This document shows, piece by piece, positions 2,254 to 64,000 of a stretch of DNA of 64,000 nucleotides. Both the position numbers and the translations under genes were made by a program. The stretch is from the NCBI RefSeq assembly GCF_000739575.1, contig NZ_BBJO01000020.1, forward strand, positions 1 through 64,000, written 5' to 3'. The number at the start of each line of letters is the position of its first letter. Position 1 is the stretch's first letter. Source of the stretch: Halobellus rufus (GTDB lineage: Archaea > Halobacteriota > Halobacteria > Halobacteriales > Haloferacaceae). The notes below the pieces were generated by a model. It was not told the DNA's origin, searched no databases, and worked only from the letters and a program-made list of their open reading frames with translations.

Positions 2254-2264
2254 TTTATATACGA
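2254..2264 (+). promoter_or_regulatory. TATA box of RNA element copy A
   Basis: TTTATATACGA is identical to the box of copy B (53550-53560) and similar to TTCAAGTACGA of copy C (63929-63939). Initiation about 26 bases from the box centre would put the RNA start near 2281-2285. GGCCA follows at +17 from the first T in all three copies. Confidence 0.7.
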
Positions 2265-2280
2265 GCGAGCGGCCACGCGG

Positions 2281-2395
2281 CGTATGCGTCGAACCGTACC
2301 CCGCGTCGGGTCGCGATAACTCGGCACGTCGACGCGGGAGCGACTGCGACGGCGGAGGCACGGGCGTCGTCGCGAGCGGGTGCCGATTGCTCGCC
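2281..2395 (+). ncRNA. Structured RNA candidate, copy A of a three-copy family
   Basis: Helix 1 pairs CCCGCGTCG (2300-2308) with CGACGCGGG (2330-2338) around a 21-base loop. Helix 2 pairs TCGGCAC (2321-2327, inside that loop) with GTGCCGA (2380-2386), a pseudoknot-like arrangement. Copy B at 53577 keeps both helices through compensatory changes. CCCCGCG begins exactly 45 bases after the TATA start in all three copies. The ends are estimates and the function is unknown. No long conserved reading frame explains the pattern. Confidence 0.62.
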
Positions 2396-53549: not shown

Positions 53550-53560
53550 TTTATATACGA
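53550..53560 (+). promoter_or_regulatory. TATA box of RNA element copy B
   Basis: TTTATATACGA, identical to copy A. GGCCA follows at 53567-53571, offset 17 as in copies A and C. Confidence 0.65.
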
Positions 53561-53576
53561 GAACGCGGCCAGCGCC

Positions 53577-53685
53577 CTCGTGAGCTAGAAACAGCCCCGC
53601 GCCGGGCCGCGGTTGTCTGGCACGTCGGCGCGGGCAATCGGCGGCGCTCGGGGGCGCGTCGTCGATGCGGGTGCCAGCTGTTCGC
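53577..53685 (+). ncRNA. Structured RNA candidate, copy B of a three-copy family
   Basis: Helix 1: CCCGCGCCG (53596-53604) with CGGCGCGGG (53626-53634), loop 21 bases, the same as copy A. Helix 2: CTGGCAC (53617-53623) with GTGCCAG (53671-53677). Relative to copy A one pair in helix 1 changes T-A to C-G; two pairs in helix 2 change, T-A to C-G and C-G to T-A. All stay paired. This supports RNA structure under selection, not chance repeats. Confidence 0.65.
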
Positions 53686-63928: not shown

Positions 63929-64000
63929 TTCAAGTACGATCCCGGGGCCACCGTCGCCGTGACGTAACAGCCACCCCGCGTCGGCTCGCGGTTGCTCGGC
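63929..64000 (+). ncRNA. RNA element copy C, cut by the window end
   Basis: A TATA-like box TTCAAGTACGA (63929-63939), GGCCA at 63946-63950 (offset 17), and CCCCGCG at 63974 (offset 45), all at the same spacing as copies A and B. CCCGCGTCG begins helix 1, then GCTCGCGGTTGCTCGGC matches the loop, ending at the window edge before the helix can close. Confidence 0.5.

Follow-up and report, generated by a model that had tools for sequence, protein, structure and literature searches.

A haloarchaeal family of small pseudoknot RNAs with a predicted two-codon leaderless reading frame

Phage lambda bar RNA carries a message that consists of a start codon, one further codon and a stop, and in the rpsO/S15 mRNA a pseudoknot beside the start codon positions the ribosome; trapping mRNAs of the rpsO/S15 type are autoregulated and have both a leader and a protein ligand. 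To our knowledge, the minigenes of lambda bar and of axe-txe are bacterial, are not stand-alone structured leaderless RNAs, and have neither a conserved pseudoknot nor a multi-copy family. Here we describe a haloarchaeal RNA family in most members of which a predicted two-codon start-stop frame precedes a pseudoknot. It is represented by three copies (A, B and C) in the first 64,000 nucleotides (nt) of contig NZ_BBJO01000020.1 of Halobellus rufus, which is the stretch of DNA analyzed here and is called the window (contig C62 of a 3.85-Mb genome).

A two-codon minigene has been described for axe-txe (PMC8708949). In Arabidopsis NIP5;1 the ribosome stalls at a minimal AUGUAA start-stop upstream open reading frame (PMC11915504); this frame lies in the 5′ untranslated region of a regulated mRNA, whereas the haloarchaeal family has no consistent downstream gene and has one sense codon. 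Haloferax volcanii contains the ribosome-bound small RNAs rancRNA_s194 and Hts4 (PMC6104027) and small RNAs with ribosome occupancy and no protein, including the 111-nt sRNA_61 (PMC12482152). An intergenic RNA of 111 nt was the most abundant in an earlier H. volcanii set (PMC5892119), and a conserved intergenic RNA of 209 nt is reported for Halobellus limi (PMC7002113). Like the family described here, s194, Hts4 and sRNA_61 are small, intergenic and without a detected protein product; the excerpts of PMC6104027 and PMC12482152 describe no two-codon open reading frame (ORF) or pseudoknot family. The s194 and hts4 genes were found in 0 other haloarchaeal genomes each (PMC3956466, excerpt), which misfits a family detected in all 15 Haloferax genomes searched. 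In PMC2864571 the main text contains no match for Halobact, haloarch or Haloarcula, and full-text searching of the literature gave no description of such a family among the matches listed, in the excerpts shown. The family thus appears to be undescribed. Catalogs of haloarchaeal small RNAs may therefore already list single family transcripts, unrecognized.

Family size and pseudoknot structure

At three + strand sites in the window, GGCCA begins exactly 17 bases and CCCCGCG exactly 45 bases after the start of a TATA-like box (CCCCGCG at 2299, 53595 and 63974 in copies A, B and C), so the fixed spacing claimed by the initial annotation is exact to the base. The gapped pattern GGCCA-N20-30-CCCCGCG occurs three times in the window against 0.27 expected, and 1 of 100 shuffles reached three. 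A covariance model run on the window recovers copy A at E 6e-6, copy B at E 5e-7 and the cut copy C at E 0.024, followed by the reverse strand of copy A at E 0.18 and then by matches at chance level.

The initial annotation described a three-copy element, which is true of the window; however, there are far more copies genome-wide and in other haloarchaea. A strict core pattern occurs at 9 places in the window's genome, 7 of which are true elements by eye, and a core-only covariance model (R1) finds at least 24 copies there and matches in at least 24 of 170 genomes of the same taxonomic family. With a degenerate core pattern we observe 23 copies in the window's genome (G000), 38 in another genome of the genus (G009) and 10-38 in each of 12 of 17 Halobellus genomes, with 0 of 17 matched by a reversed control pattern. 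For the H. limi chromosome, two-pattern capture (35 core matches, 32 promoter matches, 21 common) gives an estimate of ~53 copies, a figure that treats promoter matches as elements although at least one such match (L251) is no element. A model built on diverse cores (R2) matches at least 55 of 392 genomes from the order at E ≤0.01, spread over seven families; its E values are per genome, so that ~4 of the 392 could match by chance, and the sequences of many matches, not all, were read. At E ≤0.05, R2 finds all 15 Haloferax genomes, with one or two copies detected in each; outside Halobellus every matched genome gave between one and four detected copies. In a phylum sample searched with strict filters at least 6 of 294 genomes match, all in the window's own taxonomic family. 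A core-only pattern run on a named genome collection matches 103 stretches, 102 of them haloarchaeal (23 named genera plus unclassified archaea); the last lies in a Rhodobacteraceae metagenome-assembled genome and looks like chance. The genome searches scored the best 24, 10, 14 or 150 candidates per genome, so that copy numbers are lower bounds and absences are soft. The five other Halobellus genomes (G001, G008, G010, G012, G016) gave 0 copies and far fewer first-look candidates, perhaps because of differing base composition; two of them are also incomplete.

This large and widespread haloarchaeal RNA family is absent from Rfam, in line with the initial remark that no matching named RNA family was known. 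Rfam 15 gives 0 matches in the window at the gathering threshold and no match on the RNA core in 7 Halobellus loci (E ≤10) or 10 distant loci (E ≤1), and a known Rfam family was therefore rejected; the copy B promoter is touched by a match to GlsR5 that is at chance level (E 3.1; 18.5 bits against a gathering score of 100). A tRNA or transfer-messenger RNA was rejected with 0 ARAGORN matches in the window.

The core of the RNA is an H-type pseudoknot with a P1 helix of ~9-10 base pairs (bp), a P2 helix of 7 bp and an optional hairpin in loop 3. Standard pairs fill 99.1% of the pair cells of 51 Halobellus-group copies, and 25 cells are changed on both sides against 7.7 in shuffles, the 5′ strand of P1 being held constant by the search. 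Across 21 diverse copies, aligned to a structure that also included a third pairing (considered below), 50 cells are changed on both sides against 14.8, with a maximum of 13 when the partners were slid by 1-3 columns. In a blind mutual-information scan of 193 copies the eleven highest-ranked pairs are nine from P1 and two from P2, and the free P2 pair L9-T7 takes all four Watson-Crick forms (UA 61, CG 60, GC 48, AU 20). This 193-copy set requires at least 8 of 9 P1 pairs, at least 6 of 7 P2 pairs, a 3-5-nt junction and a G in position 7 of the loop, and it excludes window copy A and two Halegenticoccus copies with two sense codons. Because these copies were pre-filtered for pairing, the pairing test was repeated on the 103 core-only matches, which had no pairing filter and came from a pattern designed from copies already seen. 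There all 103 matches, the chance one among them, have a standard free P2 pair against 42 expected. All nine P1 pairs form in 91 matches and eight of the nine in 10; with a swapped control reaching 8-9 pairs in 28% when its offset is free, the P1 pair count in this unfiltered set is weak on its own. Covariation upholds both helices and argues that the pseudoknot is real, as first proposed, with other genera keeping both helices through compensatory changes.

Loop 3 is short in many copies and contains a predicted hairpin in others: 28 of 66 folded loops of 28-110 nt have z < -2 and none > +2. Single-sequence folding was rejected as evidence, being uninformative for copy A (z = 0.39). RNAalifold, run on the alignment, found P1 and not the pseudoknot, which is beyond that method.

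Promoter and predicted two-codon reading frame

The columns shared by the aligned promoters are TTTA (-30 to -27), A (-20), G (-15), CCA (-11 to -9) and a pyrimidine (-1), with the CCA invariant in 51 of 51 copies and 86-95% conserved per column over 169. A spacing of 30 nt from TATA box to start is usual for archaeal promoters. Since the TATA box stands at this distance, the +1 would fall on a GTG or ATG, which places the predicted 5′ end of the copy A RNA at 2284, not at 2254.

From this predicted +1 the typical member reads GTG or ATG (RTG), one sense codon, a stop codon and then the knot. In the 103 core-only matches, found with nothing upstream of the knot, RTG-one codon-stop is present in 93, two sense codons in 2 (Halegenticoccus only), RTG-stop in 2 (one of which, L188, is probably chance) and no such frame in 6, including the chance bacterial match; at least one two-codon ORF occurs in 21 of 23 named genera. 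The pooled 193 set has RTG-NNN-stop in 169, RTG-stop in 2 (L188 again among them) and neither in 22. The layout of a two-codon minigene is therefore seen in 93 of 103 and 169 of 193 members and not in window copy A. Where RTG is at the standard position (n = 137), the third codon is TGA in 100, TAG in 23, TAA in 12, TGG in 1 and TGT in 1, that is, a stop in 135 of 137 against a background of 1.6% after RTG in the same DNA. Taking all four offsets together, the stop frame is present in 169 of 175 (the other six being L067, L179, L187, L188, L217 and L191, the last with ATG-TAA). Among the 169, both starts (GTG 144, ATG 25) and all three stops (128/26/15) interchange, start and stop remain in frame as the gap to the knot varies from 19 to 22 nt, and the middle codon takes 20 different values, so that no dipeptide is conserved. 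This conservation supports translation of the two codons. The initial interpretation, an element with a promoter at fixed spacing and two helices, is upheld; its label of noncoding has to be qualified, since a frame of two codons is apparently present in most members.

The same promoter also offers a control for the early stop. A promoter-only search gave 21 places in G000 and 33 in G009, and 30 of these 54 were read. Family members account for 26 of the 30, and 24 have RTG-NNN-stop, the exceptions being L255 (TGG) and window copy A; the other four are three open frames and L251, with GTA at the start position. In the open frames (L266, L274 and L276, in the window's genome) the motif TTTATNNNCGANNNNGSGRCCA is present and the same +1 is occupied by GTG or ATG; with open lengths of 303, 159 and at least 497 codons, they are probably leaderless protein genes. 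Since these frames have no early stop under the same promoter, the early stop belongs to the RNA family and not to the promoter. From the promoter geometry and this control we infer that the position of the start codon at +1 is set by the promoter. The CCA element may be the sign of a broader class of promoters.

P1 begins 14-17 nt after the first base of the start codon in all 169 of the 169 members with the ORF. The leading edge of an initiating ribosome gives a toeprint at about +15 to +17, and the knot would thus start at about the leading edge of a ribosome on the start codon. A conserved knot at ribosome distance from a start codon is the arrangement of ribosome-trapping pseudoknots, the trapping itself being a prediction here.

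Two variations of the frame were also observed. The middle codon is ATC in 27 of 169 elements, and GUGAUC is complementary to GAUCAC, a sequence close to the 16S rRNA 3′ end, which makes it a possible extra ribosome contact in ATC-type copies. In Haloferax paralogue 2 (L078, L240-L246, L250) the start is replaced by ATT (ATA in L250) and CTG-TGA is kept, a pattern that resembles the use of a near-cognate start; ACG-ATG-TGA is read in L239 and L247.

A proposed ribosome-docking RNA and its alternatives

The best explanation, to which we assign a probability of roughly 0.55, is that the RNA is leaderless and takes up a ribosome at its 5′ end, up against the pseudoknot. A stand-alone small RNA would be transcribed from its own promoter beginning on the GTG or ATG, which would yield a leaderless message whose whole frame is start-X-stop. 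A ribosome loading at the 5′ end would then be held between the start and the stop codon, facing the knot at the mRNA entrance and unable either to run on or to unfold it, and would stay or re-initiate at the start codon. By this route the RNA would become ribosome-bound in a translation-dependent manner and could sequester or regulate ribosomes or leaderless initiation. The transcription start and translation are suggested by ORF conservation; the holding of the ribosome and the physiological purpose are proposals only. More tentatively, and with expectations on the low side, these RNAs would form a new class of leaderless ribosome-trap RNAs, with dozens of genes in Halobellus, in which a two-codon message only docks the ribosome against a pseudoknot, acting across the cell to regulate ribosomes or leaderless initiation or to keep them in reserve. 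If the docking proposal is right, translating two codons would be the function itself, with a ribosome caught and no protein made; Haloferax, with its one or two detected copies per genome, would offer a natural and genetically tractable system for archaeal leaderless initiation; and small haloarchaeal RNAs with ribosome occupancy and no protein would have a candidate explanation.

Several observations weigh against the docking proposal. The RTG-stop frame is missing from 22 of 193 members: in 11 the TGA is kept behind ATT, ATA, ATC or GTA (eight of the 11 represent a single Haloferax paralogue), and in the other 11 the stop or the start is lost. Window copy A has no early stop and its frame runs for 11 codons. 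The 193 copies are related, with an effective number of ~37, so counts on them are not independent. Lengthening P2 by a third pairing (GCG to the 3′ CGC) was rejected, since this pairing does not covary in the 21 diverse copies. The neighbor counts given below come from an unvalidated gene caller, and a called gene overlaps the element by >40 nt in 24 of 162. Finally, shielding the knot with a stop codon, without ribosome trapping, would yield a similar pattern.

This last possibility is the main rival, and we consider it unlikely. On this reading the promoter happens to leave a start codon at the 5′ end, so that leaderless initiation cannot be avoided, and the sole use of the early stop is to prevent ribosomes from unfolding a knot whose real task lies elsewhere, for example in protein binding. 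Such a role fits the stop preceding P1 wherever the frame is present, the conservation of promoter and predicted start site, and the 11 of 193 members that keep TGA behind a non-RTG first codon. However, there is room for as many as three sense codons ahead of P1, and in a scan of the 193 set that allowed zero to three, preferring one on ties, 169 of 171 RTG-stop members have exactly one and 2 have none; two sense codons occur in Halegenticoccus only (2 of 103). Loss of the start codon would be a simpler escape, yet it is rare. The preference for exactly one sense codon speaks against shielding, though not decisively.

It is improbable that RTG-NNN-TRA is a nucleic-acid motif, bound by protein or RNA or acting as an initiator element, and no reading frame at all. 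Its near-fixed position relative to promoter and knot, and a middle codon whose first base is mostly A or C, are what such a motif might show. However, the three stops replace each other with just 2 of 137 as TGG or TGT, GTG and ATG are exchanged, the frame is kept while the gap to the knot changes, and no early stop is seen in the open frames that this promoter also heads.

The element could also be a dispersed mobile-like repeat that spreads for its own sake, with the RNA features as relics, and this we rate as similarly improbable. Copies are many in Halobellus, and the window's genome has two that share 98% identity over -36 to +50 (promoter, ORF and first part of the knot) with unrelated flanks, so units do spread. 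Dispersal is nevertheless compatible with function, and both helices and the ORF are kept across many genera, with covariation and ORF conservation across seven families of the order in genomes that, outside the genus, have few detected copies, which speaks against decay. Viral contigs contain 0 exact matches to the core pattern; a virus-borne element was rejected on this result.

Least probable is a cis-acting leader, attenuator or riboswitch of the downstream gene, since, despite a short ORF before a strong structure that resembles attenuators and a co-directional next gene in 41 of 162 elements, the downstream gene is convergent in 121 of 162 by our own gene caller and the neighbors looked at vary between copies and genera, leaving no consistent position 5′ of a co-directional gene and this candidate largely refuted. 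In tandem contexts the element opposes the genes in 71 cases and runs with them in 20, suggesting that read-through into a sense gene is avoided.

Window copies and their surroundings

By their aligned sequences copies B and C are typical members, C being truncated by the window edge and extending to contig position 64081, and copy A is a divergent member of the family.

Table 1. Features of copies A, B and C and their neighbors in window coordinates.
Copy	Feature	Position	Strand	Basis or remark
A	TATA box (TTTATATA)	2254..2261	+	30 nt upstream of predicted +1
A	GGCCA core-promoter motif	2271..2275	+	-13 to -9
A	Predicted leaderless ORF	2284..2319	+	ATG-CGT-CGA, atypical; 11 codons MRRTVPRVGSR, TAA in pseudoknot loop
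A	P1 5′ strand (CCCGCGTCG)	2300..2308	+	alignment, covariation
A	P2 (pseudoknot) 5′ strand TCGGCAC	2321..2327	+	alignment, covariation
A	P1 3′ strand (CGACGCGGG)	2330..2338	+	alignment, covariation
A	Variable loop 3	2339..2379	+	alignment
A	P2 3′ strand GTGCCGA and 3′ tail	2380..2394	+	alignment, covariation
A	Neighbors: metallo-beta-lactamase-fold gene (divergent) and DUF5786 gene
A	DUF5786 protein, 59 amino acids	2611-2787		downstream of copy A
B	TATA box	53550..53557	+	sequence, promoter-only search
B	GGCCA promoter motif	53567..53571	+	sequence, gapped pattern
B	Predicted two-codon leaderless ORF GTG-AGC-TAG	53580..53588	+	sequence, alignment
B	P1 5′ strand	53596..53604	+	alignment, covariation
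B	P2 5′ strand CTGGCAC	53617..53623	+	alignment, covariation
B	P1 3′ strand	53626..53634	+	alignment, covariation
B	Loop 3 including predicted hairpin P3	53635..53670	+	folding
B	P2 3′ strand GTGCCAG and conserved 3′ tail	53671..53685	+	alignment, covariation
B	Neighbors: mutS and ThiF-family gene
C	TATA-like box (TTCAAGTA)	63929..63936	+	sequence
C	GGCCA promoter motif	63946..63950	+	sequence, gapped pattern
C	Predicted two-codon leaderless ORF GTG-ACG-TAA	63959..63967	+	sequence, alignment
C	Pseudoknot core, beginning only	63974..64000	+	remainder outside window
C	Neighbors: DUF5808 gene and TsaD/Kae1 gene

The Kae1/TsaD gene just past the window (L060 4106-6085 and 5317-5718, - strand) has an apparent N-terminal part in another frame, which may reflect a frameshift or an assembly error.
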